Shown here: one piece after another, positions 7,349-62,908 of the stretch | Position numbering within the stretch: the stretch's first letter is position 1 | Layout: each line of letters opens with the position of its first letter | DNA from: Phormidium tenue FACHB-886 | GTDB taxonomy: Bacteria > Cyanobacteriota > Cyanobacteriia > Elainellales > Elainellaceae | Direction of reading: 5' to 3' | Assembly (NCBI RefSeq): GCF_014764505.1 | Contig: NZ_JACXWX010000025.1 | Location: 1 to 64,000 of the forward strand | DNA: 64,000 nucleotides | Program-made: the position numbers and the translations under genes | The notes under the pieces: generated by a model | Told to the model about the DNA's origin: nothing | What the model saw: the letters and a program-made list of their open reading frames with translations, nothing else | Databases searched by the model: none

Positions 7349-7381
7349 TCGTAATTCTTGATCTGATTGACGTGTATCATT

Positions 7382-10477: not shown

Positions 10478-10490
10478 GAATTATTACTAG

Positions 10491-46946: not shown

Positions 46947-47384
46947 GTGAGTACAGAGCAGGAGAATCCAAATGACAGCGCCATGGTTCCTTCTGAGGAA
47001 GGTCAGCAAGATGCCAAGATGCTCAAGATAGATGGCAATCGTCCGATTGAGGGCAGTGATCTGCAGATCCAGAAGGTTTTGTCCATTGATGGCAATCGTC
47101 CAGTTGTGTCTGATGACGTCCAAGTGCGCGACACGATCGAAGTGGATGGCAGTCGTCCCATTGCAGCCAGTTCATTAGAGGCTGACAAAACTCTAGGAAT
47201 TGATGGCGATCGCCCCATTACTCCTAGCGATTTGTCTGTAAAAGAAGTTGTTTATGAAGACGGCAAACGACCGATTGAAACAGATAATACTCAAACTCTC
47301 AAAACGCTTCCGGTGGATGGCGATCGCCCCATTACTACGGACAATCCGGCACCCTCGGATATGATTCGAGATTACATTGACTAG
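46947..47384 (+). CDS. Protein of six exact 19-residue DGxRPI repeats
   Basis: The GTG at 46947 is preceded by AGGAG. The 145-residue protein consists almost entirely of a repeat with the core [VI]DG[NSDK]RP[IV], at residues 29, 48, 67, 86, 105 and 124, an exact period of 19. Between the cores lie short acidic linkers of the kind xxSDLQVxKTL. There is no signal or membrane segment. Short repeated cyanobacterial proteins with GNRPI cores exist, but I know of no function. The two DGDRPI copies are encoded by HIP1 octamers. It is a single gene. Confidence 0.8.
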   Translation: MSTEQENPNDSAMVPSEEGQQDAKMLKIDGNRPIEGSDLQIQKVLSIDGNRPVVSDDVQVRDTIEVDGSRPIAASSLEADKTLGIDGDRPITPSDLSVKEVVYEDGKRPIETDNTQTLKTLPVDGDRPITTDNPAPSDMIRDYID

Positions 47385-48952: not shown

Positions 48953-49016
48953 TGTTTTTTGTTACATTCATAAAACTACCCCTATTATTTCCGAATTAGA
49001 GGCTGGTAGGCATTTG

Positions 49017-49745
49017 ATGGCATTCATGGATCAAGCAACCTCACCTTTATACATTCAAATTGCAGATGAACTGCGACGGAACATAGAAGAATCTCTCTAT
49101 CAGATTGGCGATCAGTTGCCGACAGAAGCAGAGCTAAGTGCCCGATTTGGAGTGAACCGCCATACACTACGACGAGCCATTGAAGTATTGAGGCACGAAG
49201 GATTGGTACGGGTCGATCGCGGGCGCGGTATGTTTGTTGCTGCAGCTCCCATTCCCTACACTCTGGGAAAACGAGTGCGGTATAACGAGGCATTAAAAGC
49301 GCATGGTTTACAGGCAAGTTACCGAACCCTGCGAGTAGCTGAAATTCCAGCTGATTCATCGATCGCTAAACGATTGGAGCTAAAAATTGGCGATCCTGTG
49401 ATTCTGTTCGAGCGCTTAAGCCTAGCCGATGAACAACCAATTAGTGTTAGCAGTAGCTACTTTCCCAGCCAACGTTTTCCAGGATTGCTGGAGCAGTGTC
49501 AGCAATGCCATTCTATTTCTAAATTGTTTCAAGCATATGGGTGCGATCATATTCGTCGCAGTACTCGCATTTCCGCTCGATCGGTTCAGCCTAGAGATGC
49601 CCGCCTACTGGCACTGCCGCTTAATGCACCGATTCTGTTGACAGAATCGATCAATGTAGATCAGCAAGGGCAAGTGATTGAATATGGGGTGGCTCGTTTC
49701 CGGGGTGATCGAATGGAAGTGGTCATCAAGAATGACTTACCTTAA
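49017..49745 (+). CDS. phnF: GntR/UTRA-family phosphonate regulator PhnF
   Basis: The 242-residue protein has an N-terminal GntR winged helix (YIQIADELRRNIEESLYQIG, LPTEAELSARFGVNRHTLRR) and a C-terminal UTRA ligand domain (ARFRGDRMEVVI at the end), the architecture of PhnF. PhnF represses phosphonate uptake and C-P lyase genes until its ligand is present. It is followed 160 bp later by phnC. The palindrome TCTAGATGTCTAGA in that gap and before phnG is the probable binding site. The start could also be the ATG at 49026. Confidence 0.9.
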   Translation: MAFMDQATSPLYIQIADELRRNIEESLYQIGDQLPTEAELSARFGVNRHTLRRAIEVLRHEGLVRVDRGRGMFVAAAPIPYTLGKRVRYNEALKAHGLQASYRTLRVAEIPADSSIAKRLELKIGDPVILFERLSLADEQPISVSSSYFPSQRFPGLLEQCQQCHSISKLFQAYGCDHIRRSTRISARSVQPRDARLLALPLNAPILLTESINVDQQGQVIEYGVARFRGDRMEVVIKNDLP

Positions 49746-49860: not shown

Positions 49861-49918
49861 ACTTAAACTATCAGTTTTCTACTTCTGTTGAAGTATGCTT
49901 TAGCCTGTGGTTGAAACT

Positions 49919-50734
49919 ATGCAAAATTTATTGGGTCTCACGGCAGTTGAGGTCAAAGGTTTAACCAAGTCGTTTGCAAAGGGTAAATTGGTTGCACTGA
50001 GAGATGTTAGCTTTTCAGTTGCAGATGGAGAAATGCTTGCGTTAGTGGGGGCATCGGGTTCAGGCAAATCTACGCTGTTGAGAAACATCAACGGTCTTCA
50101 GCAGGCGGAGCAGGGCACTGTTGAAATCTATGGCACCCCCCTGCAAAGTAACAGTTCTCTCCACTCTAAAGTCCGAAAGATTCGGAGCCAGATTGGTTTC
50201 ATTTTTCAGCAGTTTAATCTAGTCAATCGCTTGACTGTGATCGAAAACGTTTTAGCAGGAAATTTGTCGCAGGTTTCCGTTGCCCGGTCTGCTTTGCGTT
50301 GGTTCACGCCAGAAGAAAAGGTGCGTGCCCTTGCTGCCTTAGAGCAAGTTGGCATTTTGGATCAAGCCTACAAGCGCGCTTCAGCTTTATCGGGAGGCCA
50401 GCAGCAGCGCGTTGCGATCGCCCGTTGTTTGATGCAGGGGGCACGCATCATTCTGGCAGATGAGCCAATTGCCTCCCTTGATCCAGAATCCGCCCGTAAA
50501 GTAATGGAATTGCTGACTCACTTAAGTCGGGAACACGGTATTACAGTGATTACATCTCTGCATCAGGTGCAAGTGGTGCGGCGCTACTTTGATCGGGCGA
50601 TCGCCCTAAAGGATGGGGAAGTGAAATTCGATGGACGAACAAACGATCTCGATAATTCCAGGTTAGATCAAATTTATGGTACAGCCGCTGAAGAGCTTGT
50701 GTTGAGCGGTCATGCTGAAGTGTTTGCGAGCTGA
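49919..50734 (+). CDS. phnC: Phosphonate ABC transporter ATP-binding protein
   Basis: The 271-residue ATPase powers phosphonate import. It has Walker A GASGSGKST, a Q-loop in GFIFQQFNLVNRLTV (the PhnC-type sequence), signature LSGGQQQRVAIAR and Walker B IILADEPIASLDPES. PhnC is recognised by VNRLTVIENVLAGNL and by the location before phnD and phnE. A GTG at 49907 is an alternative start. Confidence 0.95.
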   Translation: MQNLLGLTAVEVKGLTKSFAKGKLVALRDVSFSVADGEMLALVGASGSGKSTLLRNINGLQQAEQGTVEIYGTPLQSNSSLHSKVRKIRSQIGFIFQQFNLVNRLTVIENVLAGNLSQVSVARSALRWFTPEEKVRALAALEQVGILDQAYKRASALSGGQQQRVAIARCLMQGARIILADEPIASLDPESARKVMELLTHLSREHGITVITSLHQVQVVRRYFDRAIALKDGEVKFDGRTNDLDNSRLDQIYGTAAEELVLSGHAEVFAS

Positions 50735-50848
50735 TTCTTCATCCAGAATATACGTTCGAGATATCAGAATTGCGACTTCTAAAATTTCATTCTGAATTCA
50801 TCAGAACTGTTTGGAATTTTCAAAGTTTTTACAGGAATAGAAACAGAT

Positions 50849-51895
50849 ATGCTTACTCAATCCTCTAAAAAATGGGCTTCGCTGCTGACTGCATCTGTAC
50901 TCAGTCTGAGTGTGCTAGCAAGCTGTAGTGGTTCTCGAACAACACAGCAAACAGAATCCTCTAGCACTGCAAATTCTGAAACCTGTGCTCCTGAACTTGC
51001 AGCAATTGATTTTGGGATTATTTCGACTGAATCTCAAGACAATCTCAAGACAAAGTGGGATCCTTTTGTGGATGCGATGGAAGCTCAACTGGGTCGTCCA
51101 GTCAATGCATTCTACGCGACTGATTATGCGGCCGTGATTGAAGCGATGGGAGCAGGTAAAATTCAGCTTGCCTGGTATGGTGGGAAGTCTTACATTGAAG
51201 CGGCAAAGCGATCGAATGCTGAGGCATTTGCTCGTGTGATTGGCGAGGATGGCACGAAGGGATACTACTCCCACCTGATTACAAATAAAGATAATCCGAT
51301 TGTGTCTCAGATAGATGTCAACCAGGGGAATGGCGATCAGTATGTGATTCAGAACGCTGCTAACCTGACCTTTGCCTTCAACGACCCCGAATCAACTTCT
51401 GGTTTTTTGGTACCTAGCTACTATGTTTTTGCTAAGAATGGGATGAACCCGAACGAAGCATTTAAGCAATTAACCTTCGCTGGAAGCCATGAAGCCACTG
51501 CTCAGGCTGTTGCGAATAACCAAGTGGATGTGGCTACCAATAACAGTGAACAAATGACGATCATTGAGGAATCTTCTCCTGAAACCCGTGAGAAAATTCA
51601 GGTGATCTGGACATCTCCAGAAATTCCCAGCGATCCGTTGGCTTACCGGAAAGACATGCCCGACTGCCTCAAAGAGCAGGTGAGAAACTTCTTCTACAAC
51701 TACAAAGATGCCTCTATTCTGGGTGCTCTTGATTGGTCTGGATTTGAAGCGGCAAAAGATGAGGATTGGGATACGATTCGAGAGCTAAACATCGGCAAGG
51801 AAATCCTGGAGATTCAGAACGACAAGAATCTCAACGAACAGCAGAAACAGCAAAAGATCGGTGAACTGAACAACCAATTGGACGCACTGAAGTAA
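50849..51895 (+). CDS. phnD: Phosphonate ABC transporter substrate-binding lipoprotein
   Basis: The 348-residue protein has a lipoprotein signal ending in VLASC (Cys about residue 26) and the PhnD fold: ELAAIDFGIISTESQDNLKTK, FYATDYAAVIEAMGAGKI and LAWYGGKSYIEAA. The last corresponds to the phosphonate-binding segment of PhnD/PtxB proteins. The C-terminus is helical and Gln/Asn-rich. It delivers phosphonates or phosphite to PhnE. It lies between phnC and phnE. Confidence 0.95.
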   Translation: MLTQSSKKWASLLTASVLSLSVLASCSGSRTTQQTESSSTANSETCAPELAAIDFGIISTESQDNLKTKWDPFVDAMEAQLGRPVNAFYATDYAAVIEAMGAGKIQLAWYGGKSYIEAAKRSNAEAFARVIGEDGTKGYYSHLITNKDNPIVSQIDVNQGNGDQYVIQNAANLTFAFNDPESTSGFLVPSYYVFAKNGMNPNEAFKQLTFAGSHEATAQAVANNQVDVATNNSEQMTIIEESSPETREKIQVIWTSPEIPSDPLAYRKDMPDCLKEQVRNFFYNYKDASILGALDWSGFEAAKDEDWDTIRELNIGKEILEIQNDKNLNEQQKQQKIGELNNQLDALK

Positions 51896-51912
51896 GGTTG
51901 AAGTAACATTTT

Positions 51913-52746
51913 ATGAGTGAAAAGAACCTATCGGCTGCATCCAATTCCCACCCTTCTCCTGCCGTACAGGCAATGTTGGAGCAGGAGAAAAAGTTAATTA
52001 CGCCGCGTCGAATCTTTTATTTGGCGCTCGCCCTGGTCATTCTAATTTACTCTGGGCAGCAGAGCGATCTCAGCGTGGTTGAGTTAATCCAGGGTGGAGG
52101 CAATATGGCGGAATACATCAGCCGCTATTTCCCTCCTGACTTTACAGACTGGCGGCTCTATCTGCAAGACACGATCGAAACGATCGCAATGGGACTTTGG
52201 GGCACGATTCTAGCGGCAATTGTGGCAGTACCGCTGGCGATTCTGGCTTCAGAAAATCTCTGCCCGTCAGGGTTGGTATTTCCAGTTCGGCGAGTGCTGG
52301 ATGCGATGCGTGCCATTAATGAAGTGGTTTTTGCACTAATTTTTGTGGTCGCAGTGGGGTTAGGTCCGTTCGCGGGAGTACTCGCTTTATTTGTTCATAC
52401 GGCAGGAACTTTGGGCAAATTATTTTCGGAAGCGATCGAGGCGATCGATCCGGGTCCTGTTGAAGGCATTCGCGCTACGGGGGCAAGCAAACTGCAGGAG
52501 ATTGTGTTTGGTGTCATTCCTCAAGTATTGCCATTGTGGACATCATTCACGCTCTACCGCTTTGAAGCAAATGTTCGTTCTGCTTCAGTCTTAGGGATTG
52601 TGGGTGCAGGCGGAATCGGCGTTTCGTTGTATCAAAGTTTTCGATCGTTCAAGTATCCCAAAGTTTGTGCAATTCTAATCTTTTTGATTGTCTCAGTATC
52701 GATCATTGATACGCTTTCATCTAAATTAAGACAGCGATTAATTTAG
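51913..52746 (+). CDS. phnE: Phosphonate ABC transporter permease
   Basis: The 277-residue protein has about six membrane helices. The ATPase-contact loop reads EGIRATGASKLQEIVFGVIP, typical of PhnE, with AMRAINEVVFALIFVVAVGLGP before it and SASVLGIVGAGGIGVSLYQS after. It closes the phnCDE transporter operon. The gene ends 46 bp from the tail of the convergent C-P lyase operon, with no strong terminator visible between. Confidence 0.95.
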   Translation: MSEKNLSAASNSHPSPAVQAMLEQEKKLITPRRIFYLALALVILIYSGQQSDLSVVELIQGGGNMAEYISRYFPPDFTDWRLYLQDTIETIAMGLWGTILAAIVAVPLAILASENLCPSGLVFPVRRVLDAMRAINEVVFALIFVVAVGLGPFAGVLALFVHTAGTLGKLFSEAIEAIDPGPVEGIRATGASKLQEIVFGVIPQVLPLWTSFTLYRFEANVRSASVLGIVGAGGIGVSLYQSFRSFKYPKVCAILIFLIVSVSIIDTLSSKLRQRLI

Positions 52747-52792: not shown

Positions 52793-53437
52793 TCAGCCCT
52801 TCAGGACTTCAACTGCCATGAGTTCCCAGAAGAGAGACAGCCGAACTCGGGTGGAGCGACAAATCTGAAACTGTGCTGCATTAAGCAAGTCATGCAATTC
52901 TTTCTGGGTGTAGCACTGTTTATGGGCAGGATCGATCCACTTCAAGATGAAATCACATAGTTGACAGAACCAACCATCACGGCACCAGTCTAAAAGCACT
53001 AATCTGCCATCAGATTTCAAAACTCGTCGCATTTCCTGTAAAGATGTTAAAGGATCATCAAAGTAGTGAAATGAATTTGCAGAAATAACTACATCAAAGC
53101 TGCGATCGGGAAAGGGAAGCGATCGAACTGTTGCCAATTGAAAGTTAATGTGGGGAAAGGCTTGTAGTTTTTGTCTAGCTTGAGCCAGCATCCGTTCTGA
53201 AAGATCCACACCCACGATCTGCTGATGTAGATTTTCTGCAGCTAAAAGCCGTTCTAATTCTCCTGTGCCGCAAGCTACATCTAGAATCACACTATCAGGG
53301 GAAAGATTTGCCCAAGCTTTGAAGAAGGTGAGCGTATCTGTAATGTAGTTTTTCCAACGTTGATCATATCGATCGGCTAACTGATCGTATTGACCCTGCA
53401 CAATTAATTCAATTTCGCTTTCGTTAGCCTGATTCAT
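52793..53437 (-). CDS. SAM-dependent methyltransferase at the end of the C-P lyase operon
   Basis: The 214-residue class I enzyme has motif I LDVACGTGELERLL, acidic loop GVDLSERMLAQARQ, post-I FDVVISANSFHYFDDP and the strand SDGRLVLLDW. It is the last gene of the phn operon, 4 bp after the HAD phosphatase, so it is co-transcribed. No methyltransferase is needed in known C-P lyase chemistry. It may act on a P-compound or on a by-product. The C-terminus after position 160 (CQLCDFILKWIDPAH) is not of a familiar subtype. Confidence 0.85.
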   Translation of the reverse strand: MNQANESEIELIVQGQYDQLADRYDQRWKNYITDTLTFFKAWANLSPDSVILDVACGTGELERLLAAENLHQQIVGVDLSERMLAQARQKLQAFPHINFQLATVRSLPFPDRSFDVVISANSFHYFDDPLTSLQEMRRVLKSDGRLVLLDWCRDGWFCQLCDFILKWIDPAHKQCYTQKELHDLLNAAQFQICRSTRVRLSLFWELMAVEVLKG

Positions 53438-53441
53438 GTTA

Positions 53442-54146
53442 TTACCAGTATTTTTCTCTTAAGAGTTTCCTTTGCGTACTATCTATACTCCATCGTTGAA
53501 CATCAAACTCGTCCAGCGAGTTTAGAATCTCATCTGCTTCCTGAAATAGGCTTTTGTCCATGATTGGATCGGGAACGGCGATGACTGCCATACCTGCTTG
53601 CTTGGCTGCAAGTACGCCTGCCAGAGAATCCTCAAACACCAGACATTGCTCTGGACATGCTCCCAATCGCTCAGCCGTAATCAGGAAAATATCAGGTGCA
53701 GGCTTACCCTGCTTAATGGCTGGATCATCTCCCAGCACAATGCAGTGAAACTGCTGCATCCACTTCTGATGATGGGTGGTTTTGGCACCAAAGGGACGTT
53801 GGGAAGAACTGCTGGCGATCGCTTGAGGAATACCTGCCTGATGAAAATGCTGGGTCAATTCCATTGCACCGGGCATCGGGCAGGATAAGGGATATAGATC
53901 GTAAATGAGGGCAACCTTTTGTTCCAGGTATTCTTGAACGGTAAGTGGCAATGCTAGCATGTCAATCACGATTTGAGCCGAGTCCTCTGCTCTGCGTCCC
54001 ATGACTTTTGTCCGAACTGACGCATCAAGCATTTTGCCATAGCGAGCGGCGATCGTCTGATTCACCTGAGTATGAATTGATTCCGTGTTTAACAGCAATC
54101 CATCAAGGTCATAAATGAGGTGAGTAATTGGTTTCAAGTTAGGCAT
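53442..54146 (-). CDS. HAD-IA sugar-phosphatase-like protein in the phn operon
   Basis: The 234-residue protein has HAD motif I YDLDGLLLNTES, motif II in AIASSSSQ, motif III Lys in KQGKPAPDIF and motif IV CLVFEDSLAGVLAAK, with an alpha-helical cap after motif I. This fits the beta-phosphoglucomutase/pseudouridine-5'-phosphatase-like subfamily that dephosphorylates phosphosugars. It lies between the PhnZ-like gene and the methyltransferase with short gaps. A role on ribose 1,5-bisphosphate, the PhnP product, is a reasonable inference. Confidence 0.88.
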   Translation of the reverse strand: MPNLKPITHLIYDLDGLLLNTESIHTQVNQTIAARYGKMLDASVRTKVMGRRAEDSAQIVIDMLALPLTVQEYLEQKVALIYDLYPLSCPMPGAMELTQHFHQAGIPQAIASSSSQRPFGAKTTHHQKWMQQFHCIVLGDDPAIKQGKPAPDIFLITAERLGACPEQCLVFEDSLAGVLAAKQAGMAVIAVPDPIMDKSLFQEADEILNSLDEFDVQRWSIDSTQRKLLREKYW

Positions 54147-54159
54147 CGCATGTTGTTTA

Positions 54160-54705
54160 TCAGGTTAAGCAAGAGACTAGAATCGGGGTGAAATGCTCAA
54201 GGTTGGGGGTTGGCAAATCAGCAACTTTAGCGCGATCGTCCCAGATGCGAAGCTGTACGGCATTCTCAGCATAGGGTTGAGCAATGAACGATGCGGCAGC
54301 TTCTGGTGAAAAAATGCCTCCCTGAAGTTCTAAGCTGTGCTTGGAGGCAGGAGAAAGAGCCTCCCAGTAGGTTGAATCTACCGCACAGAGATAGCGTTTT
54401 GCGTCTACGTGCAGACGAATTGGTTCTGTCACGGCTTGGTTAAATAGCGTTTGCAGTAACGGCATAGCGCGATATTCATGGCGATCGTCCAGACCGCGAT
54501 CGGCAACATCTTCTCCTAAATCATGCAGCAAATGTCCTAAATCGTGTAGCAAACAGGCGGCAATTAAATCTGAAGAGCGATCGCTGATTTCGGCTAAGGT
54601 GGCGCACTGCAGCGCATGTTCTAGTTGGCTAACAGCTTCTCGCCCGTATTGAGTATTGCCTTTAGTTGCAAGGGTTTCCAGAATTCGTTTTAGTTGAGGT
54701 TGCAT
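54160..54705 (-). CDS. PhnZ-like HD-domain diiron oxygenase
   Basis: PhnZ cleaves the C-P bond of 1-hydroxy-phosphonates with O2 through a mixed-valence diiron site. The 181-residue protein matches PhnZ closely. The diiron ligands His30, His54, Asp55, His76, His99 and Asp156 correspond to 34, 58, 59, 80, 104 and 161 of PhnZ. Tyr20, Glu23 and Lys103 match 24, 27 and 108, which bind substrate. It therefore fits the family of phosphonate-operon HD proteins (TIGR03276) and should be active. No PhnY hydroxylase is encoded nearby. It overlaps the 2H gene by 16 bp. Confidence 0.9.
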   Translation of the reverse strand: MQPQLKRILETLATKGNTQYGREAVSQLEHALQCATLAEISDRSSDLIAACLLHDLGHLLHDLGEDVADRGLDDRHEYRAMPLLQTLFNQAVTEPIRLHVDAKRYLCAVDSTYWEALSPASKHSLELQGGIFSPEAAASFIAQPYAENAVQLRIWDDRAKVADLPTPNLEHFTPILVSCLT

Positions 54706-55277
54706 GGATCAGTTATGGAGGGCAAAGAATTGGTCATAAGCGCATCTAATTGCCAGAATTGGTGACAAGTCCAGCGCTGGTCAGAATGGCGCTGATAGAA
54801 GCGTAATTCCCACTGAACAGATGCCTGCAAGCTGATGTATTCTTGAGCAAGTTGGATCAGCGATTCGGATTGTTCACGTTGAAATTCATAGGCTAAACTC
54901 AAGTGCAGCCAATCTTTCCGTCGTAAAGCGTTCCGTCGAGTTGGTGATGCGGCAAGTGTGGCAAAGTTGACAATCATGGTCTTCAGCCAATCGGACTGAA
55001 GTTCCAATCCATGCCAATCGGAACGGAAGGTGAGTTGCTGAATGGTAATGACCGGGTTTAGACAAGGTTGAGCTTGGCTGAGGGCGCGATTGAGCGCCTG
55101 CACATACAGTGGAACTGCCACTGCCTCATCCTGAAAAAAACCCGTTAGAGTACAGTGAGGCATATAGCGATGGGCTGCATTTGCGCCACAAACGGTAAGA
55201 CTTTGCTGGAAGTACCGATCGAGCTGTTCAGCCAGTTCACCTGTTGGGCAAGCATAGACGATGAATGACTCAGCCAT
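54690..55277 (-). CDS. 2H phosphoesterase in the phn operon
   Basis: I start at the ATG at 55277 (MAESFIVYACPTGELAEQLD), overlapping the second phnM by 8 bp. The 195-residue protein has the paired motifs of 2H (LigT/CPDase-like) phosphoesterases: HCTLTGFF with His41 and HLSLAY with His125, each followed by Thr or Ser. Such enzymes open 2',3'-cyclic or related cyclic phosphates. The operon lacks PhnP, which opens the 5-phosphoribosyl 1,2-cyclic phosphate made by PhnJ, so this protein is a candidate replacement. That is inference. Confidence 0.8.
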   Translation of the reverse strand: MAESFIVYACPTGELAEQLDRYFQQSLTVCGANAAHRYMPHCTLTGFFQDEAVAVPLYVQALNRALSQAQPCLNPVITIQQLTFRSDWHGLELQSDWLKTMIVNFATLAASPTRRNALRRKDWLHLSLAYEFQREQSESLIQLAQEYISLQASVQWELRFYQRHSDQRWTCHQFWQLDALMTNSLPSITDPCNLN

Positions 55278-56433
55278 AGCGAGCGACTTCCTGTCCCTTA
55301 ACGTAGACAGCGACGATCGCAGAGGGCAAAGCACAGCCCGGTTTGATTAACAGGAAATCTGCCTCTAGCCCCGCAGCAATTGCACCCTTGCGATCAGCAA
55401 TTCCAGCCGCTTTGGCCGGATAAGTCGAAACTAATTTCCAACTTTTTTCAAACGGCATCAACCCCATCTCAGCCATCTTAAACGGCGCATGGAACAGGGA
55501 AGGATAGTGATAGTCAGAGCAAAGGCAATCTAGAACCTCAGCTTGAGCCGCCGCTGCCACACTCATATAACCGACATGTGACCCACCTCGGATTAAATTT
55601 GGTGCACCCATCAATACTGCCGCACCGTAATTGCGAGACTGCGCTGCCAACGCGATCGAGGCTGGAAATTCTGCGATCGCTACTTGACGCTTTGCGCTCA
55701 ATGCCACATCCATCTCAGTTTCATCATCATGAGAGGCAACCGGGATACTAAGTTGGTGAGCTTGCTCCACCAGTTGTTCAATTTGCTGTAGTCCTTTTTC
55801 CTGACGTGCCATCGCAGCTTCAATCAGCGATCGAATTTCAGGTTGAGAAAGCTTGATGCGTTGTTGTAACCCTTTGGTATAGCGGGACAGGGTTTCATCA
55901 TCGGTTGTATCGGGCAAATGATTATTCAGGGACAGCAGATGAATCTTGCCGTTCTGCAACCAATCAGATAATTCTTCACACTTATCCGTATTGCTCTGTT
56001 CATGCCGAATGTGAATGCGGCTGTCTACGTTTAGATTCAAAGATGCATTCAGAATAGTATTAACTAATTGTCGGGCTGTATCCCGGCTGCGTAGCCCCGG
56101 CTCAAAAGAGTCGGTAATGGAGTAGTAGAACGTAGTAATTCCAGCCGCTAGCAACATACGATCGTTTTCGGTGATGGCGATCTCTAGCGGAAAAGTTACT
56201 CCCGGACGCGGACAAATCATGCGTTCAAAGGCATCGCCATGAATATCCACCATGCCCGGAAGCATTTGTAAGCCTGTGATGTCGATCGAGATAAATCCAC
56301 CAGGCTTGCTTGTTTGATCAATCTGGATAAACCGACCGTCCTCAACTAAGACTGTCGCGTTCTGAATCCAACCCGTCGGAGTTAATACATCTGCGCCTTG
56401 CAGAGCAATTTTGGTTGCGGTTGATGGGTGCAT
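55270..56433 (-). CDS. Second PhnM-like amidohydrolase
   Basis: This 387-residue protein is a paralogue of the neighbouring PhnM. It keeps the amidohydrolase metal motif in diverged form (DIHGDAFERMICPRPGVTFP, His65 and Asp67), and also IHIRHEQSN, ASHDDETEM, AEFPASIALAA and LMGAPNLIRGGSHVG. PhnM removes pyrophosphate from ribose-1-phosphonate triphosphates. A second copy could take a different phosphonate side chain or nucleotide. It lies 33 bp downstream of phnM. Key metal ligands all seem conserved, so it is likely active. Confidence 0.88.
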   Translation of the reverse strand: MHPSTATKIALQGADVLTPTGWIQNATVLVEDGRFIQIDQTSKPGGFISIDITGLQMLPGMVDIHGDAFERMICPRPGVTFPLEIAITENDRMLLAAGITTFYYSITDSFEPGLRSRDTARQLVNTILNASLNLNVDSRIHIRHEQSNTDKCEELSDWLQNGKIHLLSLNNHLPDTTDDETLSRYTKGLQQRIKLSQPEIRSLIEAAMARQEKGLQQIEQLVEQAHQLSIPVASHDDETEMDVALSAKRQVAIAEFPASIALAAQSRNYGAAVLMGAPNLIRGGSHVGYMSVAAAAQAEVLDCLCSDYHYPSLFHAPFKMAEMGLMPFEKSWKLVSTYPAKAAGIADRKGAIAAGLEADFLLIKPGCALPSAIVAVYVKGQEVARYG

Positions 56434-56466: not shown

Positions 56467-57606
56467 TTATGCCACTCGTTGTCCCTGCCGAATAACTGAA
56501 GTTAGTCGAGGAACAATACCATCATCATGAACAGTGATTAAATCCGCCCGTTTGCCAATTTCTAATGAGCCGCGATCGCCCTCCAACCCGATCGCCTTAG
56601 CCGGGTTGAAGGCAAACAGTTGCATTGCCTGATAAAGCGGTTTTTCAGTTGCGTGAGCAATTAAAAACATAGCTTGCAGTAAACTTTGAGGCACATAATC
56701 CGAGGAGATAATATCCACTAAATTGCGCTCTACGAGTTCCATAGCGGAAATGTTGCCAGAGTGAGAACCACCCAGAATCAAATTGGGTGCACCCATGAGA
56801 ATTTGCAAACCATGACGATGAGCTTCTTTTGCCGCATCTAACGTAGTGGGGAATTCGGCAATTTCAGCACCATCAGTAACCGCCTGCTGCACATGTTCTA
56901 CGGTTGTATCGTCATGGCTGGCAAGGGCAATCTCTTTAGCCTGAGATAGCTCTACTAATCTTTGCCGATTGCCGTCAGCATAATTACGTTGTGCCTCTAA
57001 TTGGTTCTGGATAAACGCTTCCACCTCCGCTTTGCTGATGCCATGTTTGCCCATATAGTATTCTTTGTACTTATCGATCCTGGCAAACTGACGCTGTCCT
57101 GGCGTATGATCCATGAGGGAAATCAAAGCGAGCAATGGGTGATCGGCGTATTGCTCGGCAATTTCATAAGCATGTTCATACACCAGCTCGCAGCGCAGGT
57201 GCAAGCGATGATCCACTGCAAATCGTCCCTGTTCCTGTCCCTGTTCGATCGCATCAATCATGGGGCCGAATTGAGTTAAACGCAGAGAAGTGGGCGTAAT
57301 ATCACCCACGGCAATCGCGTCACAGACTGTTGTAATACCAGCACTAATCAATTCGCGATCGTGATAAGCTGCTGCTACATCTAACGGGAATCGCACTTTG
57401 GGACGGGGCGAAATACACTGCTCGAAATTGTCGGTGTGAAGTTCAATCAGTCCGGGTAGCAGGTAATCACCCTCTCCGTTCTGCCCTTGAGCCACTGCCC
57501 CAGGCTGAATATCAGCGATCGTGCCATCCTGAACGACCAGCGTCCCCAAAACCTCTTGATCGGGGAGCTGAAGTCGATAGTTGGTGTAAATCTGTTCACT
57601 CATCAT
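56467..57606 (-). CDS. phnM: Alpha-D-ribose 1-methylphosphonate 5-triphosphate diphosphatase
   Basis: PhnM hydrolyses the triphosphate of the ribose-phosphonate to pyrophosphate plus the 5-phosphate that PhnJ uses. The 379-residue amidohydrolase has IELHTDNFEQCISPRPKVRFP (His57, Asp59), HLRCELVYE, LASHDDTTVEHV, AEFPTTLDAAKEA and LILGGSHSGN, the usual PhnM pattern. It starts 3 bp after phnL stops. This is the canonical copy, since HTDN is the common form. Confidence 0.95.
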   Translation of the reverse strand: MMSEQIYTNYRLQLPDQEVLGTLVVQDGTIADIQPGAVAQGQNGEGDYLLPGLIELHTDNFEQCISPRPKVRFPLDVAAAYHDRELISAGITTVCDAIAVGDITPTSLRLTQFGPMIDAIEQGQEQGRFAVDHRLHLRCELVYEHAYEIAEQYADHPLLALISLMDHTPGQRQFARIDKYKEYYMGKHGISKAEVEAFIQNQLEAQRNYADGNRQRLVELSQAKEIALASHDDTTVEHVQQAVTDGAEIAEFPTTLDAAKEAHRHGLQILMGAPNLILGGSHSGNISAMELVERNLVDIISSDYVPQSLLQAMFLIAHATEKPLYQAMQLFAFNPAKAIGLEGDRGSLEIGKRADLITVHDDGIVPRLTSVIRQGQRVA

Positions 57607-57609
57607 AAT

Positions 57610-58353
57610 TTAATCTTCTCTCCCAAAGGTTAAGACTCGATTACAGACTCGATCGCGCACTTCATCATCATGAAAAATGCCAATCATGGTACATCCTTCT
57701 GCTTTGCGTTCCTCGATCAACTGCATCACAGCTTCACGATTCACGCCATCCAGTGCTGAAGTTGGTTCATCTAGCAAGAAAATGGGATAGTTTACAGAGA
57801 AGGCCCGAGCAATGTTAACGCGCTGCTTTTCACCGCCGGAAAAGGTTGTAGGAGATAAACTCCAGAGACGTTCCGGTAAATTCAATCGAACAAACAATTC
57901 TCGCACTTTGGCACAGGCACTTTCCGGGGTATATCCTAGCTCCATCAAAGGTTCTGCTGCCACCTCCAATGCCGGAACCCGAGGAATTACCCGCAGAAAT
58001 TGGCTAACATAGCCAATCGTTTTTTGACGCACTGCAATTAATTCGTGTGGTTGCAGCGTTGGCAAATCGACCCAGGTTCCATCATGCTTCACCCAAATCG
58101 AACCACTATCAACTCGATAGTTGCCGTAGAGCGATCGCATCAGCGTTGACTTTCCTGACCCAGAGGCTCCAACTAGTGCCACACATTCTCCAGCTTCAAC
58201 ACTTAGAGAGATACCTCGTAAAACAGGTAAATGAATGCTGCCTTGATTGTGTAGAATAAATTCTTTAAAGAGATTTTCGGCATGAAGACATACTTTTGAA
58301 GAAACATCGGGACTTCGCTGACGATGATTAGAGCCAAGCAGTTGAGAGGGCAT
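57610..58353 (-). CDS. phnL: C-P lyase ABC-type subunit PhnL
   Basis: The 247-residue ATPase has Walker A GASGSGKSTL, signature TFSGGEKQRVNIARAF and Walker B IFLLDEPTSALDGVNR. LRGISLSVEAGECVAL and SQFLRVIPRVPALEVAAEPL are typical of PhnL. With PhnG, H, I, J and K it forms the C-P lyase core complex, where the ATPase pair opens the active complex. The first about 25 residues are extra relative to the family and may not be the true start. Confidence 0.94.
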   Translation of the reverse strand: MPSQLLGSNHRQRSPDVSSKVCLHAENLFKEFILHNQGSIHLPVLRGISLSVEAGECVALVGASGSGKSTLMRSLYGNYRVDSGSIWVKHDGTWVDLPTLQPHELIAVRQKTIGYVSQFLRVIPRVPALEVAAEPLMELGYTPESACAKVRELFVRLNLPERLWSLSPTTFSGGEKQRVNIARAFSVNYPIFLLDEPTSALDGVNREAVMQLIEERKAEGCTMIGIFHDDEVRDRVCNRVLTFGRED

Positions 58354-58374: not shown

Positions 58375-59154
58375 TTAAGGAACTAAAGTGGCATTCACAA
58401 GTTGTTGAGTATAAGAATGTTGCGGATCATCCAGAACTTGATCGGTTAACCCCTCCTCAACCACAACTCCGTTTTGCATCACCATCAGCCGATGCGCTAG
58501 CAGTCTAACCACGCCAATATCATGTGTAACCAGAATGACGCTGAGATGCAAAGTCCGGACCAGAGAACGCATCAAATCCAACAACTTTGCCTGTACTGAA
58601 ACATCCAACCCGCCTGTAGGTTCATCCATTAACACCAGACGAGGTCGCGTAATCAGCACACGAGCTAACTGCAATCGCTGCTGCATGCCTCCAGAAAAAG
58701 TACTGGGCAACAGATCAATGCGATCGATCGGCATTTCGACATGGGTTAACCACTGCAAGGCTTCTGCCCGAATCTTGCCATAGTGCCGTTCTCCTACATT
58801 CAGCAACCGTTCCCCAATATTGGCTCCCGCTGTCACATTCATTCGCAGTCCATCTCTAGGATTTTGATGCACAAACCCCCATTCTGTTCGCATCAATAAT
58901 CGACGATGTGCTTCCGATAGTTCCCCTAAATCAAGCACATCTCCAGAACGGCTCTGATAAATTATCTGTCCGGCATCCAGTGGCAAATGACCTGCGATCG
59001 CACTTAATAGCGTCGATTTTCCTGATCCCGATTCGCCAATAATGCCAAGCACCTGACCTGGATAAAGACCGAAGGAGATATCCTGGCACGCCCGAATCTT
59101 GCCATAGGACTTACTCAATTGGTTTACGGTAAGTAGAGGTTGTAGAGGTTGCAT
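58375..59154 (-). CDS. phnK: C-P lyase ABC-type subunit PhnK
   Basis: The 259-residue ATPase has Walker A GESGSGKSTLL, signature FSGGMQQRLQLAR and Walker B LVLMDEPTGGLDVSVQ. The PhnK-specific GFVHQNPRDGLRMNVTAGAN section is present. PhnK docks on PhnJ in the C-P lyase complex. It follows phnJ by 58 bp and precedes phnL by 21 bp in the operon. Confidence 0.95.
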   Translation of the reverse strand: MQPLQPLLTVNQLSKSYGKIRACQDISFGLYPGQVLGIIGESGSGKSTLLSAIAGHLPLDAGQIIYQSRSGDVLDLGELSEAHRRLLMRTEWGFVHQNPRDGLRMNVTAGANIGERLLNVGERHYGKIRAEALQWLTHVEMPIDRIDLLPSTFSGGMQQRLQLARVLITRPRLVLMDEPTGGLDVSVQAKLLDLMRSLVRTLHLSVILVTHDIGVVRLLAHRLMVMQNGVVVEEGLTDQVLDDPQHSYTQQLVNATLVP

Positions 59155-59212: not shown

Positions 59213-60103
59213 CTAAACATTTTCATCTGCCTGCCTACGATTACAGAAATCTGTATCCGAACAGATCCACATCCGGTCGCCCTGATCGTTAGTCACAATT
59301 TCATCTAAGTAACTTTCCGTTGAGCCACAGAATTCACAGGCATGATTCCAGGTTTCGATCGTGAAAGGGTAATCCTCAAAATCGAGGCTTTTTACCTTTG
59401 TATACGGTGGCACAGCATAGATCCGTTTTTCTCGTCCTGCCCCAAATAGCTGTAAGGCGGGACTCATATGCATCTTGGGATTGTCAAAACGAGGGATAGG
59501 GCTGGGTTTCATTAAGTAGCGATCGTTCACCATTACTGGGTAGTCATAGGCAGTTGCGATCTGACCGAAGTAGGTAATGTCTTCATAGAGACGGACGTAT
59601 ATTGAACCGTATTCCTCTAGCGCGTGCATTTTATTTGCTTCAGTACGAGAGGGTTCAATGAAATATAGTGGCTCCGGTAGCGGCACCTGGTAAACTAGAA
59701 TTTGACCTTCTCGCAGCGGCGTTTCTGGAATACGATGCCGTGTCTGAATTAACGTAGATTCTTCCGTCTGTTCTGTCGTTTGCACACCGCAAACCTTTTG
59801 AAAGAAACGCCGAATATTGACTGCATTCGTCGTATCATCTGCCCCTTGATCAATGACTTTCAGCACATCCTGTTTGCCAATCACAGAAGCTGTAACCTGG
59901 ATGCCACCCGTTCCCCAACCGTAAGACATCGGCATTTCCCGCGAACCAAAGGGAATTTGATGACCCGGAATGGCAACCGCTTTCAGCAGTGCCCGTCGAA
60001 TCGATCGCTTGGTTTGCTCGTCTAAATAGGCAAAGTTAAACCCTGTTTCGGGAGTAGGAGACGCTGTGGAATCGCAAGCAGCAACAGATTCAGACTGTAG
60101 CAT
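59213..60103 (-). CDS. phnJ: C-P lyase radical-SAM subunit PhnJ
   Basis: PhnJ breaks the C-P bond of alpha-D-ribose 1-methylphosphonate 5-phosphate, giving methane (from methylphosphonate) and a 1,2-cyclic phosphate. The 296-residue protein has the cluster cysteines Cys256, Cys259, Cys281 and Cys287. Their spacing (3, 22, 6) equals that of E. coli Cys241, 244, 266 and 272. MSYGWGTGGIQVTASV holds the glycyl region. It overlaps phnI by 14 bp. All key residues are present, so the enzyme should be active. Confidence 0.97.
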   Translation of the reverse strand: MLQSESVAACDSTASPTPETGFNFAYLDEQTKRSIRRALLKAVAIPGHQIPFGSREMPMSYGWGTGGIQVTASVIGKQDVLKVIDQGADDTTNAVNIRRFFQKVCGVQTTEQTEESTLIQTRHRIPETPLREGQILVYQVPLPEPLYFIEPSRTEANKMHALEEYGSIYVRLYEDITYFGQIATAYDYPVMVNDRYLMKPSPIPRFDNPKMHMSPALQLFGAGREKRIYAVPPYTKVKSLDFEDYPFTIETWNHACEFCGSTESYLDEIVTNDQGDRMWICSDTDFCNRRQADENV

Positions 60104-61313
60104 TGGTACTCTCCATATTGATACCCTCGATGACTGATGTCCCGTTGGTTGCAGAATCTATTTGAGGAGTTATTTCAGGTGTCTTTGCTGCCTCTTGCCG
60201 CAATTTCCGAATTAAATTTAATTCTGCTTGAAAATCAATGTAGTGCGGCAGTTTTAAGTGCTGTACAAATCCTTGTGCCTCCACGTTGTCCGAGTGATAC
60301 AACACAAATTCTTCGTCTTGGGCAGGTGCAGCCATCTCTTCCCCCAGCTCCTTCGCTCGTAAGGCACGATCGACCAATGCCATCGACATCGCTTTGCGTT
60401 CGTTATAGCCAAACGTCAGCCCATAGCCCCGGGTAAATTGCGGCGGTATCTCCTTGCTGCCCTTAAACTGATTCACCATTTGCACTTCTGTCACTGTGAT
60501 GTCGGCGATCGATACCTCAAACCCCAACTCCTCGGGACAAATCACCACTTCCACATCACCTACTCGGATCTCTCCCGCAAAGGGATGATTCTTGCCATAG
60601 CCTCGCTGCGTTGAATAAGCTAAGCCCAACAGAAACCCCTCATCGGCACGCGCCAAATTCTGTAACCGCGCTTCTCGACTAGCAGGTGTGGTTAACGGTT
60701 GACGAGTAATATCAAACGGGGAAGCTTCTGAATCCGGTGGCAGGTCGCCATTCGTGCTTTGCTGCCCATGGCTGTCAGCGTTTTCCCTACTCTGTGATAG
60801 CTCCAATTCTTCCTCGATTAACCCTTCCTGTCCCAAAATATCTATTACACGCGGCACGACGGACTGCTGGGGTTCTGCTTCCGGTGCGATCGGCATAGTT
60901 CCCTCAGCGGCTAGTTTAAAGTCCAGCAAGCGATGCACATAATCGAACGTTGCACCTAGACATTGTCCTCCGGGAGCATCTTTAAAGATGGCAGAGATGC
61001 GGCGTTGCACAGCCATTTGGCTGGTGTCGATCGGGCGGCTGTAATATAAACGAGGCAAGGTTGTGCGGTAAGCCCTTAGTAGAAAAACGGCTTCAACTAA
61101 ATCGCCCCACGATTGTTTAATTGCTAACGCTGCCAAATCCGGATCGTAGAGGCTGCCTTCGCTCATAACGCGATCGACCGCTAACGCCATCTGCTGTTTA
61201 ATCTGCTCCAGCGTCAACTCGGGGGTATTGGGATCGCCTCGTCGCCGTGCCTGTAACAACGATTCAGCATTCTGAATTGCTTGTTCTCCCCCTTTCACTG
61301 CCACATACGCCAT
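60090..61313 (-). CDS. phnI: C-P lyase nucleosidase subunit PhnI
   Basis: PhnI, with PhnG, H and L, replaces the adenine of ATP with phosphonate to make ribose-1-phosphonate triphosphate. The 407-residue protein starts MAYVAVKGGEQAIQNAESLL and has RLYYSRPIDTSQMAVQRRIS, PGGQCLGATFDYVHRLLDF and KAMSMALVDRALRA, all usual in PhnI. The middle (about 170-215) is a low-complexity stretch of extra length. It overlaps phnJ at its end. Confidence 0.96.
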   Translation of the reverse strand: MAYVAVKGGEQAIQNAESLLQARRRGDPNTPELTLEQIKQQMALAVDRVMSEGSLYDPDLAALAIKQSWGDLVEAVFLLRAYRTTLPRLYYSRPIDTSQMAVQRRISAIFKDAPGGQCLGATFDYVHRLLDFKLAAEGTMPIAPEAEPQQSVVPRVIDILGQEGLIEEELELSQSRENADSHGQQSTNGDLPPDSEASPFDITRQPLTTPASREARLQNLARADEGFLLGLAYSTQRGYGKNHPFAGEIRVGDVEVVICPEELGFEVSIADITVTEVQMVNQFKGSKEIPPQFTRGYGLTFGYNERKAMSMALVDRALRAKELGEEMAAPAQDEEFVLYHSDNVEAQGFVQHLKLPHYIDFQAELNLIRKLRQEAAKTPEITPQIDSATNGTSVIEGINMESTNATV

Positions 61314-61346: not shown

Positions 61347-61796
61347 TTACGTGGTCAGCTCAACAACAAAACTGAATCCATGCTTAATGAAACCGAGGGA
61401 CTCGTAGAAAGCGTGAGCATTTTTTCGCTTCAAATTCGTTGATAAAGCCATTTTGTAACAATGTGCGTGGCGGCATTGCTCCAAGGCAAACTGCATCATT
61501 GCTGTGCCGATTCCGTGACCGTGACATGCTGGATCAACCGCAACCGCTTCAACAATGGCAGACGGACGACCTAGATGCAGCAGGTTGTCCATAATCAGCA
61601 GCGCAAACGTGCCGACCATAGCGCCACCCGATTCAGCCACGTAGAGATGATAGTTCGGATAGTGCTGCATTCGTTCAAACATTGCCTGAGCTTGCGTCAG
61701 TGGGAGCATCACTCCATCGTCTAATTCCGGTTGGCTATATAAGTTCAGAATGGCTGGCAAGTCGGTTTCAACTGCTTTACGAATGCCGATCGTCAT
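61347..61796 (-). CDS. GNAT acetyltransferase within the phn operon (PhnO-like position)
   Basis: The 149-residue GNAT protein has the acetyl-CoA loop in VDPACHGHGIGTAMMQFAL, preceded by VEAVAV, and the final ALSTNLKRKNAHAFYESLGF. The STNxKRxxAHxFY pattern resembles PhnO, which acetylates aminoalkylphosphonates in E. coli and so protects from or helps C-P lyase use. Here it sits between phnH and phnI with strong AGGGGAG before its ATG. The protein is only loosely similar to PhnO, so I do not assign the symbol. Confidence 0.82.
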   Translation of the reverse strand: MTIGIRKAVETDLPAILNLYSQPELDDGVMLPLTQAQAMFERMQHYPNYHLYVAESGGAMVGTFALLIMDNLLHLGRPSAIVEAVAVDPACHGHGIGTAMMQFALEQCRHAHCYKMALSTNLKRKNAHAFYESLGFIKHGFSFVVELTT

Positions 61797-61811: not shown

Positions 61812-62387
61812 TCAGCGTTGAATTGCAGTGGTGCGGGGTAGACCCATCACATGGGTTTGACCAAACAAAAAAACATCTACCCCTAGCGGATATGCTTGAT
61901 GATTGCTGAGCCACTGCTGCCAAAATTGCCCCGGAAGCTGAGGGGCGATCGTCCTTTTGCCTAAAATCCCCGGTCCTTGTAGCACAACAGCCTCACCCTC
62001 CACCCCATCCTCAACCTGAATCAGCAACGTGGTAGACAATTCTGGATACTCAGCCGTGCCTGGATTGAACGCCTGCAGATTAAGCGATCGAGCCACATCC
62101 CAAATTACAGCGAAATTTGCCTGCTGGGGATCGGTTGTGAATCGGCATCCGGTATGGAAGCGCAGCCAGGGTTCAATCTCCAATCCAGGCTGAAGCCATA
62201 CCTGAGTTTCCAGATCGAGCAAGGTCAAACAAGCTGCCGCGCAAGCTGGGGACATTTTGCCCGGTGGAGTGATGGATGATGTAATTGTGCAGGAACGACC
62301 AGGATGAGCTAATGCCTCTAACAGTGTCCGAAACGTCGCCTGAGCTTCGTGAACTACATCTTGAAAGCCTGGTAATGATGTGACCAT
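61812..62387 (-). CDS. phnH: C-P lyase subunit PhnH
   Basis: PhnH belongs to the PhnGHIJ core complex. The 191-residue protein begins MVTSLPGFQDVVHEAQATFR and has LLEALAHPGRSCTI, LTLLDLETQVWLQPG, LLIQVE and the C-terminal YPLGVDVFLFGQTHVMGLPR, the usual PhnH profile. I start at the ATG at 62387; a TTG at 62396 would overlap phnG. The gap to phnG is 5 bp, so the two are coupled. Confidence 0.94.
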   Translation of the reverse strand: MVTSLPGFQDVVHEAQATFRTLLEALAHPGRSCTITSSITPPGKMSPACAAACLTLLDLETQVWLQPGLEIEPWLRFHTGCRFTTDPQQANFAVIWDVARSLNLQAFNPGTAEYPELSTTLLIQVEDGVEGEAVVLQGPGILGKRTIAPQLPGQFWQQWLSNHQAYPLGVDVFLFGQTHVMGLPRTTAIQR

Positions 62388-62392
62388 GACGA

Positions 62393-62878
62393 TCAACTCC
62401 CCCGCACTAAAGTAAAAAAGTTGACTCGGGTTGACTCAGTCTGCCGCTGTTGCTGATCATGGTGATGTTGGGCGGTCGCCTGAAGCGGCAGAATCACCTG
62501 TGTTTGAATCAGATCGTGCCAGACGGGATGCTGGAGCAGTGCATCACATAGGGCTGCCAGTTCAGCATGGCAGTGCGATCGACCTGCTACATAGCCAAAC
62601 CCGATGATTATCCCTTCAGGGAACTGCGGAGCAATCGCTTCCTCCAAGTCAGGTGTTTCCAGCCTCACCACACAACGAGTGACCGTCATTTCACCTAGAT
62701 AAAAGGGTTGCCCTGTTCCCCCGATGCGCCCTTGCACCATCGCCAAACCAATCTCTGGAGGACGCAGAAAACCGTAGCTGGGTAGATGAGTTAAGTGCGA
62801 GACGATTTGCTCCAGCTGAAGGGGAGAGGACCTAGCTAGAGTCGCCATCCAGCACTGTCGCGGGGTTAAATCTGTCAT
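62393..62878 (-). CDS. phnG: C-P lyase subunit PhnG
   Basis: This 161-residue protein has PhnG features: RQCWMATLARSSPLQLEQIV at the start, LRPPEIGLAMVQGRIGGTGQPFYLGEMTVTRCVVRL in the middle (residues about 39-74) and GFGYVAGRSHCHAELAALCD near the end. It is the first gene of the leftward operon. The candidate PhnF operator lies 31 bp before its start codon. I start at the ATG at 62878; an upstream TTG is possible. Confidence 0.94.
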   Translation of the reverse strand: MTDLTPRQCWMATLARSSPLQLEQIVSHLTHLPSYGFLRPPEIGLAMVQGRIGGTGQPFYLGEMTVTRCVVRLETPDLEEAIAPQFPEGIIIGFGYVAGRSHCHAELAALCDALLQHPVWHDLIQTQVILPLQATAQHHHDQQQRQTESTRVNFFTLVRGS

Positions 62879-62908
62879 GAGCAATTCTTAATCTGTTCTT
62901 TAAACAAA

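Follow-up and report, generated by a model that had tools for sequence, protein, structure and literature searches.

A PhnZ-type oxygenase gene in a cyanobacterial C-P lyase operon with no detected PhnY partner, and a probable substrate for its product

Several enzyme systems that act on phosphonates include an HD-domain oxygenase. PhnZ of the uncultured bacterium HF130_AEPn_1 (PDB entries 4mlm, 4mln, 4n6w and 4n71) works with the hydroxylase PhnY*, and TmpB of Leisingera caerulea (6npa) acts on a trimethylamino substrate and pairs with TmpA. In both proteins, the glutamate of a loop with the pattern YxxE contacts the amine of the substrate (PMC8177086). PhnY/PhnZ of Prochlorococcus MIT9301 and PhnY*/PhnZ1 of Gimesia maris belong to the same oxygenase family and use the same chemistry, in a pathway for methylphosphonate (MPn) and hydroxymethylphosphonate (HMP) (PMC6581173, PMC10574752). 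Members of family TIGR03276 without PhnY* have been published for Achromobacter and pseudomonads; the Achromobacter protein, PhnHD, is encoded beside HpnW and PhnX, and modelling, in silico only, proposed (R)-1-hydroxy-2-aminoethylphosphonate (R-HAEP) as its substrate (PMC11203657). We analyzed a 64,000-nucleotide stretch of DNA (the window) from the cyanobacterium Phormidium tenue FACHB-886 (assembly GCF_014764505.1, contig NZ_JACXWX010000025.1), in which a gene for a protein of this family (the HD protein) lies at 54160-54705 inside an operon for carbon-phosphorus (C-P) lyase.

The HD protein has the fold, metal ligands, YxxE loop and conserved lysine of PhnZ, to which it is 30-33% identical in structural alignments, but PhnZ has a hydroxylase partner and the HD protein, in its C-P lyase operon, has none that we detected. 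TmpB is its best solved relative by sequence, ties with PhnZ by structure, and has the same loop. Like the Achromobacter protein, it belongs to TIGR03276. The MIT9301 and G. maris systems, which we compared by description, differ from it in having a PhnY partner, and a shorter loop was read in Prochlorococcus-like copies. An analogous ancillary role is known for PbfA, the R-HAEP ammonia-lyase that brings R-HAEP into a pathway unable to use it; unlike the HD protein, PbfA is an unrelated pyridoxal phosphate enzyme that makes phosphonoacetaldehyde for PhnX and is found with hydrolytic clusters (PMC8154272).

The open reading frame (ORF) of the HD protein runs from 54705 to 54160 on the minus strand, begins with ATG and encodes 181 amino acids. 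In a profile scan with NCBIfam, the protein matched TIGR03276 ("phosphonate degradation HD-domain oxygenase") with 227.8 bits (cut-off 214.6, E 6.2e-68) over nearly its full length (residues 5-179 on model positions 4-178 of 179). All nine residues expected from PhnZ are present (Y20, E23, H30, H54, D55, H76, H99, K103 and D156) and are invariant across an alignment of 12 sequences. They include the metal-ligand set H30, H54-D55, H76, H99 and D156, and K103, which we take to be a functional residue. Another histidine, His58, is invariant in the same 12 sequences and was found in all 74 rows of a larger alignment, including TmpB and PhnZ; it may be the fifth conserved histidine named for the TIGR03276 clade (PMC11203657). 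Judged by sequence, the HD protein is a member of this known family, a PhnZ-type HD-domain oxygenase ("PhnHD") with predicted oxygenase activity, and by analogy it presumably has a mixed-valent diiron centre.

Comparison with solved structures gave the same placement. By sequence, the closest chains were TmpB (6npa, E 3.7e-32) and the PhnZ entries (from E 1.7e-25). An AlphaFold2 model of the HD protein (mean pLDDT, the predicted local distance difference test, 89.5) had 10 Foldseek matches at E ≤ 0.001, all of them TmpB or PhnZ. With VIA-align, the model aligned to TmpB with Z 24.5 and to the four PhnZ entries with Z 22.9-24.4, far above myo-inositol oxygenase (MIOX; Z 10.9 and 9.8), which came next, and all other listed chains (Z ≤ 9.1). 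MIOX is the other known HD oxygenase besides the PhnZ type, and most known HD proteins are phosphohydrolases (PMC8177086 for the latter).

The gene belongs to a C-P lyase operon by position as well as by company. The core genes phnGHIJKLM are present, as judged from NCBIfam and Pfam models and matches to annotated genes of the Nostoc plasmid pNsp_b, together with phnCDE and phnF; we call an operon with this set complete. On the minus strand, from 62884 to 52793, the order is phnG, phnH, a PhnO-like gene, phnI through phnM, a second phnM (phnM2), a 2H-phosphoesterase-like gene, the HD gene, a phosphatase gene of the HAD family and a methyltransferase gene, with overlaps or short gaps between them (Table 1). 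Sixteen bases are shared between the start of the HD gene and the end of the 2H gene, and 13 bases separate the HD gene from the HAD gene, so co-transcription of the HD gene with the operon is likely. An earlier note on this DNA, made from the sequence, had proposed a PhnZ-like oxygenase in a complete C-P lyase operon, had listed the nine residues and had called for a structural alignment to PhnZ; the profile, structure and gene-content results all agree with it.

The association of HD with PhnJ recurs across cyanobacteria. We searched 388 cyanobacterial genomes, 100 of which had a TIGR03276 match at E ≤ 0.001. Genomes with at least 130 bits were counted as having HD, a line set after seeing the list; there were 57, including one with the gene split over two frames (G113) and one with an internal stop (G304), and the matches in the other 43 were weak or partial. 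PhnJ was found in 37 genomes. HD was present in 30 of these 37 and in 27 of the 351 others (both, 30; PhnJ only, 7; HD only, 27; neither, 324; odds ratio 51, Fisher p 1.5e-22, kinship ignored). With the curated cut-off, which left 46 HD genomes, the corresponding counts were 29, 8, 17 and 334, again ignoring kinship. A single family contributes 20 of the 30 genomes with both genes; outside it, HD exceeded the cut-off in 10 of 14 PhnJ genomes.

To describe the neighbourhoods of the gene, we used 58 cyanobacterial HD loci (the window, L020 and L050-L105) with flanks of about 10 kb or up to the contig end, leaving out L106, in which the gene is split, and L006-L018, which are partly the same loci. 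Twenty had phnG, phnH, phnI or phnJ nearby, in 13 HD lay beside matches to an oxidoreductase of TIGR03364 and to a PhnX-like hydrolase, six had PhnY, and 19 had none of these. By these markers the three groups did not overlap, although L061, of the TIGR03364 group, also has phnM and a 2H gene, and in L083 phnM2 occurs together with a PhnX-like match. In all 20 C-P lyase loci the HD gene is on the same strand as the core phn genes; 19 have at least six core-gene matches and L055 has phnM alone. HD occupies various positions: it follows PhnM1, PhnM2 or the 2H gene in some loci, and in others it is found between phnM2 and phnJ or between the GNAT gene and phnG. Because the association recurs with changing gene order, we favor a functional tie over inheritance of one layout. 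In L106 (genome G113, contig C54) and in L017 (Vasconcelosia minhoensis) parts of the HD gene lie in two different frames, so that it is either broken or affected by sequencing error; PhnJ of G113 is on a different contig from the split gene.

The TIGR03364 group places sister copies of the HD protein in another setting. In L074, for example, the TIGR03364 match was 446 bits (cut-off 285.1) and the PhnX-like match to TIGR03351 was 168 bits, short of its cut-off of 218.9; an aminoethylphosphonate permease, PhnU2 (726 bits), is encoded in the same locus. Given these clusters and the permease, we conclude that sisters of the HD protein live among aminophosphonate genes. The oxidoreductase is probably of the PbfD type. 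PbfD oxidizes N-methyl-aminoethylphosphonate and aminoethylphosphonate (AEP) to phosphonoacetaldehyde and has homologues in many cyanobacteria (PMC10590968).

Outside cyanobacteria our sample consisted of plasmids and five further loci, the non-cyanobacterial ones in a set of 13. HD matches occurred in 28 plasmid records, and we examined 16 plasmid loci (the Nostoc plasmid among them), classed by annotation except L130, L141, L142 and L143, which were classed by our own protein matches. Two were in a C-P lyase operon (Nostoc and Variovorax SRS16), two were beside TIGR03364 and phnX, three beside a PhnU2-like transporter, two beside PhnY, three beside a TauD-type hydroxylase, and four beside none of these. 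The Variovorax operon, which ends in HD, is the sole one among the 15 non-cyanobacterial plasmid loci. Of the five other loci, L015 and L016, from metagenome-assembled genomes (MAGs) of Burkholderiales, have phn core genes beside HD, and L014, on a 6-kb contig, has phnCDE only.

Of the kinds of hydroxylase tested, the host appears to have none to supply the HD protein. The genome assembly (8.93 Mb in 255 contigs) is 99.88% complete. There is no PhnY in the window, and in the genome the best match to a Prochlorococcus-like PhnY had E 0.32, the best match to TmpA of a Phyllobacterium plasmid had E 1.34, and the methylphosphonate-hydroxylase model NF052437 had no match at E ≤ 0.001; these were the three types searched for, and PhnY* of the AEP type was not among the queries. 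The genome has five PhyH and two TauD matches. None of the five PhyH proteins matched a phosphonate hydroxylase model at E ≤ 0.001 in the NCBIfam scan, which did not include the two TauD proteins. Thus no 2-oxoglutarate-dependent hydroxylase partner of a PhnY/PhnZ two-enzyme pathway was found in the genome by these searches. PEP (phosphoenolpyruvate) mutase also had no match, and PhnW, TIGR03364 and PhnX had none over cut-off, so the host seemingly lacks both the usual phosphonate synthesis and the tested hydrolytic AEP routes. A second TIGR03276 protein is encoded at 9128-9667 of L050 (contig C35), with no phn gene within the 19 kb examined; from reading of the ORFs, its neighbors resemble nagA, nagB and a permease of the phosphotransferase system.

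A copy without PhnY is not an oddity among cyanobacteria. Counting matches of more than 200 bits to NF052437 as PhnY-like (no genome reached the cut-off of 500), we found six genomes, each of which has HD and lacks PhnJ; the other 51 of the 57 HD genomes had no such match. Weaker PhyH matches to this model occurred elsewhere, up to 97 bits in the HD genome G180. In our searches the absence of PhnY reported in the earlier note held beyond the window, but the rarity that it implied did not, given these counts and the published cases from Achromobacter and pseudomonads (PMC11203657).

The loop of the HD protein, Y20-x-x-E23, has the same spacing as in PhnZ and TmpB. YxxE, with a spacing of 10 between the tyrosine and the residue equivalent to His30 as in TmpB and PhnZ, is found in every one of the 20 copies linked to C-P lyase and of the 13 linked to TIGR03364. 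In contrast, all six cyanobacterial copies paired with PhnY have a spacing of 9 (YDES or YDPS), that is, one residue fewer. Copies paired with PhnY on plasmids of Rhodococcus and Dietzia also have a spacing of 9. The six genomes are small and appear to be Prochlorococcus-like, a description based partly on the PhnY-PhnZ layout itself; Prochlorococcus MIT9301 grows on MPn and HMP and not on 2-aminoethylphosphonate (PMC6581173). A tree of 65 rows, made from the 74-row alignment after removal of broken or partial sequences (L017, L106 and L099) and exact duplicates, placed the cyanobacterial copies linked to C-P lyase or to TIGR03364 away from PhnZ, TmpB and the copies paired with PhnY. Support was 0.78-0.96 at key nodes and lower elsewhere, and because deep support was moderate we base no claim on the tree.

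We think that the HD protein probably acts as a PhnY-independent PhnZ-type oxygenase on an imported 1-hydroxyphosphonate, most likely R-HAEP or a close amine-bearing relative, with glycine and phosphate as products. Carrying over by homology the steps described for PhnZ and TmpB (PMC8177086), a ready-made 1-hydroxyphosphonate would enter through PhnCDE and bind one iron of an Fe(II)/Fe(III) pair, with its amine taken by Glu23. Tyr20 would then leave the second iron, where O2 would bind and take the alpha-hydrogen, and the C-P bond would break to give glycine and phosphate. The lyase of the same operon would handle unhydroxylated phosphonates, and the HD protein would widen the range of the operon, or remove a poorly used or toxic compound, with no need of PhnY. 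The simplest reading is that the HD protein is the R-HAEP handler of its operon. R-HAEP is a natural compound that is not properly processed by PhnW-PhnX; phnZ was reported in 15 of 1,186 phnWX and 24 of 75 phnWAY clusters, and never with pbfA (PMC8154272).

Several observations weigh against this reading. The loop residues by themselves do not fix the substrate, because GmPhnZ and TmpB turn over HAEP inefficiently despite similar substrate-binding residues, which differ in spacing (PMC11203657), and GmPhnZ cleaves both HMP and R-HAEP (PMC10574752). The six short-loop cyanobacterial copies are presumed HMP enzymes, and their PhnY proteins scored only 219-234 bits with the methylphosphonate hydroxylase model. 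Spacing 9 also occurs in L092, L094 and L131 (a Novosphingobium plasmid) with no PhnY detected or annotated nearby, and we rejected on these grounds a rule by which a short loop implies PhnY next door. The Asticcacaulis copy L135, beside phnX and a TIGR03364 gene, reads YGLH, and the second host copy, in L050, has YENG, with glycine in place of the loop glutamate. Neither NCBIfam substrate model claims the HD protein: it scored 149.9 bits with the TmpB equivalog NF049941 and 164.2 bits with the GmPhnZ1 equivalog NF052439 (cut-off 300 for each). The latter test is strict, since two Prochlorococcus-like copies also fail it (213.8 and 212.3 bits); for comparison, the TmpA and TmpB proteins of a pair encoded on a Phyllobacterium plasmid reached 596.4 and 357.6. 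The association with C-P lyase is not perfect in cyanobacteria, with HD absent from seven of the 37 PhnJ genomes and 19 of the 58 loci outside all three groups (some phn match is present in eight of these 19, a weak one in one case), and it is not general outside them, as only two of the 16 plasmid loci, Nostoc and one Variovorax, are in such an operon. We found no published assay of any C-P-lyase-linked HD copy in the parts of the literature available.

HMP had been the first suggestion of the earlier note for the substrate; 2-amino-1-hydroxyethylphosphonate, which the note also named, is the better candidate. With HMP as the substrate, environmental HMP would be converted to formate and phosphate, a methane-free route beside the methane-yielding C-P lyase. 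Growth of MIT9301 on HMP has been attributed to PhnZ and HMP occurs in marine dissolved organic matter (PMC6581173), GmPhnZ acts on HMP as well as on R-HAEP (PMC10574752), and for the HD protein the PhnZ1 model scored slightly above the TmpB model (164.2 versus 149.9 bits). However, the loop is of the kind that goes with amine substrates, with a glutamate and a spacing of 10 rather than the 9 of the PhnY-paired cyanobacterial, Rhodococcus and Dietzia copies, and the sister copies are in aminophosphonate clusters. For these two reasons we rank R-HAEP above HMP, which we moved to second place and regard as unlikely; the more general idea, that the substrate is an already hydroxylated phosphonate, probably stands. 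In addition, the PhnZ1 model scored 64 bits below TIGR03276 for the HD protein and 21 and 31 bits above it for the two Prochlorococcus-like copies, which is only a tendency because it was 7 bits below in the Rhodococcus pair and 23 below in a fusion protein from L018. It is distinctly unlikely that a divergent hydroxylase encoded elsewhere makes the substrate in trans, as an ordinary PhnY/PhnZ pathway split in two. The host does have five PhyH and two TauD matches, and G180, a relative with a much alike operon (L066), has its 97-bit PhyH protein on another contig. Yet none of the host PhyH proteins matched a phosphonate hydroxylase model, neither NF052437 nor the TmpA query found a counterpart in the genome, and the PhnY- or TmpA-type genes seen in this survey adjoin their HD partner in the six cyanobacterial loci, Rhodococcus, Dietzia and Phyllobacterium.

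The remaining alternatives concern the role of the enzyme rather than the source of its substrate. If the HD protein served mainly for detoxification, it would remove R-HAEP-like inhibitors that enter through PhnCDE, and phosphorus gain would be secondary. E. coli is inhibited by racemic HAEP, and for cells that take up AEP the exclusion of HAEP may be difficult (PMC8154272); the chemistry would be that of the R-HAEP oxygenase proposed above, with a different selective benefit. We consider detoxification as the main role very unlikely. It is highly improbable that the HD protein is a phosphohydrolase or an accessory enzyme of the C-P lyase pathway, for example one that stands in for PhnN or PhnP and processes ribose phosphate intermediates. 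Operon membership would fit such a role, as would the predominance of phosphohydrolases among known HD proteins (PMC8177086), and the ligand motif by itself does not identify an oxygenase with full reliability (PMC11203657). No phnN or phnP model was among the matches listed for the ten window proteins scanned with NCBIfam, and no genome-wide search for them was made. Against this, the predicted structure resembles TmpB and PhnZ, and then MIOX, more than any other listed chain, and the YxxE loop and K103 are conserved. Moreover, 27 of the 57 HD genomes have no PhnJ, seven of the 37 PhnJ genomes have no HD, and HD is also found in aminophosphonate clusters with no C-P lyase core genes nearby.

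Table 1. Genes of the C-P lyase region in the window and the evidence for their assignment
Feature	Position	Strand	Evidence
PhnZ-like HD-domain oxygenase	54160..54705	-	TIGR03276 over cut-off; YxxE loop Y20-E23
2H-phosphoesterase-like protein	54690..55334	-	weak PF13563 match, E 8.9e-4, below cut-off; start may be internal, ~55277
Second PhnM paralogue (PhnM2)	55270..56433	-	NF011987 527 bits, cut-off 253
phnM (PhnM1)	56467..57606	-	TIGR02318 508 bits, cut-off 390.55
phnL	57610..58353	-	match to annotated phnL, Nostoc plasmid pNsp_b
phnK	58375..59154	-	match to annotated phnK, Nostoc plasmid pNsp_b
phnJ, radical-SAM C-P lyase	59213..60103	-	PF06007 497 bits; sole match in genome
phnI	60090..61313	-	match to annotated PhnI, Nostoc plasmid pNsp_b
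PhnO-like GNAT acetyltransferase	61347..61796	-	best model NF007530 (aminoalkylphosphonate N-acetyltransferase), E 2.4e-11, 44 bits, below cut-off 142
phnH	61812..62396	-	TIGR03292 197 bits, cut-off 91.5
phnG, first gene of the operon	62393..62884	-	TIGR03293 165 bits, cut-off 89
HAD-family phosphatase, downstream of HD	53442..54146	-	TIGR02009 116 bits, below cut-off; TIGR01509 over cut-off
Class I SAM (S-adenosylmethionine) methyltransferase, end of the operon	52793..53437	-	PF08241 98 bits
phnF regulator	49014..49745	+	TIGR02325 221 bits, cut-off 156.8
phnC, phnD, phnE transporter (three ORFs), convergent with the lyase operon	49907..52746	+	match to annotated phnCDE, Nostoc plasmid pNsp_b

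Some neighbors of the HD gene recur with it. The 2H gene is the nearest counted gene upstream of HD in five of the 20 C-P lyase loci, and PhnM2 is in six; a HAD phosphatase gene is also near HD in L066 and L070. The 2H protein, which had no PDB match, is perhaps an RcsF-type stand-in for PhnP; a role of RcsF has been described (PMC10574752). The second PhnM, which recurs beside HD, is divergent. A search of the window for a signature of phosphorus starvation, with a cyanobacterial pho-box pattern, was uninformative, with 9 matches against 4.57 expected, 5 of 100 shuffles reaching 9, and none of the matches upstream of phnG (62884). Away from the operon, a 145-aa ORF at 46947-47384 consists mostly of repeats around a DGxRPI-like motif.

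Other loci in the survey had unusual arrangements. On the plasmid pNsp_b of Nostoc sp. ATCC 53789 (L128), a FosA-type glutathione transferase (7342-7764; NF000496 189 bits, cut-off 180) is encoded within the phn operon, with phnI on one side and the second phnM on the other, and precedes HD by two genes. In L018, from a Microthrixaceae MAG, a single 470-aa ORF (9095-10507) encodes a bacterial PhnY-PhnZ fusion. Residues 16-262 match a PhnY-type hydroxylase (NF052437, 216 bits against a cut-off of 500), and residues 285-459 match a PhnZ-type domain and have the short loop (TIGR03276, 194 bits against 214.6). In the part of the source available, a fusion of this kind, PhoF, is named from a fungus only (PMC10574752). 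A 531-aa ORF on an Embleya plasmid (L143, 2945-4540) has a TmpB-like HD domain at 352-528, and its first 350 residues matched no NCBIfam model; it is possibly another fusion, or its start was called too early. The short-loop HD gene of the Novosphingobium plasmid (L131, 8836-9543) adjoins genes for a phosphocholine-specific phospholipase C and a TonB receptor, with no PhnY annotated within 9 kb.

The enzyme belongs to a known family, whose steady place in cyanobacterial C-P lyase clusters is little noted. In the portions of the literature available, some C-P lyase operons are said to contain a substrate-specific gene (PMC9381506) and two hypothetical proteins are listed in the phn cluster of Nodularia (PMC3610870), and we found no description of a regular PhnZ-like gene in cyanobacterial C-P lyase operons or of the contrast in loop length. 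C-P lyase operons are the usual marker of methane-releasing phosphonate use, and 30 of the 37 cyanobacterial PhnJ genomes carry a second enzyme that probably cleaves C-P bonds. The R-HAEP reading points to a little-measured natural compound as a source of phosphorus. If upheld in assays, the difference in loop length would let surveys tell HMP-type and amine-type PhnZ genes apart at little cost. More tentatively, the aerobic C-P lyase operons found in cyanobacteria and in some Burkholderiales might be hybrid systems, in which unhydroxylated phosphonates go to the lyase, and those alpha-hydroxylated aminophosphonates that inhibit the lyase or cannot be processed by it go to a dedicated PhnY-less subfamily of PhnZ, recognizable by the full YxxE loop. 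If so, alpha-hydroxyphosphonates would be a common enough source of environmental phosphorus to have shaped these operons.
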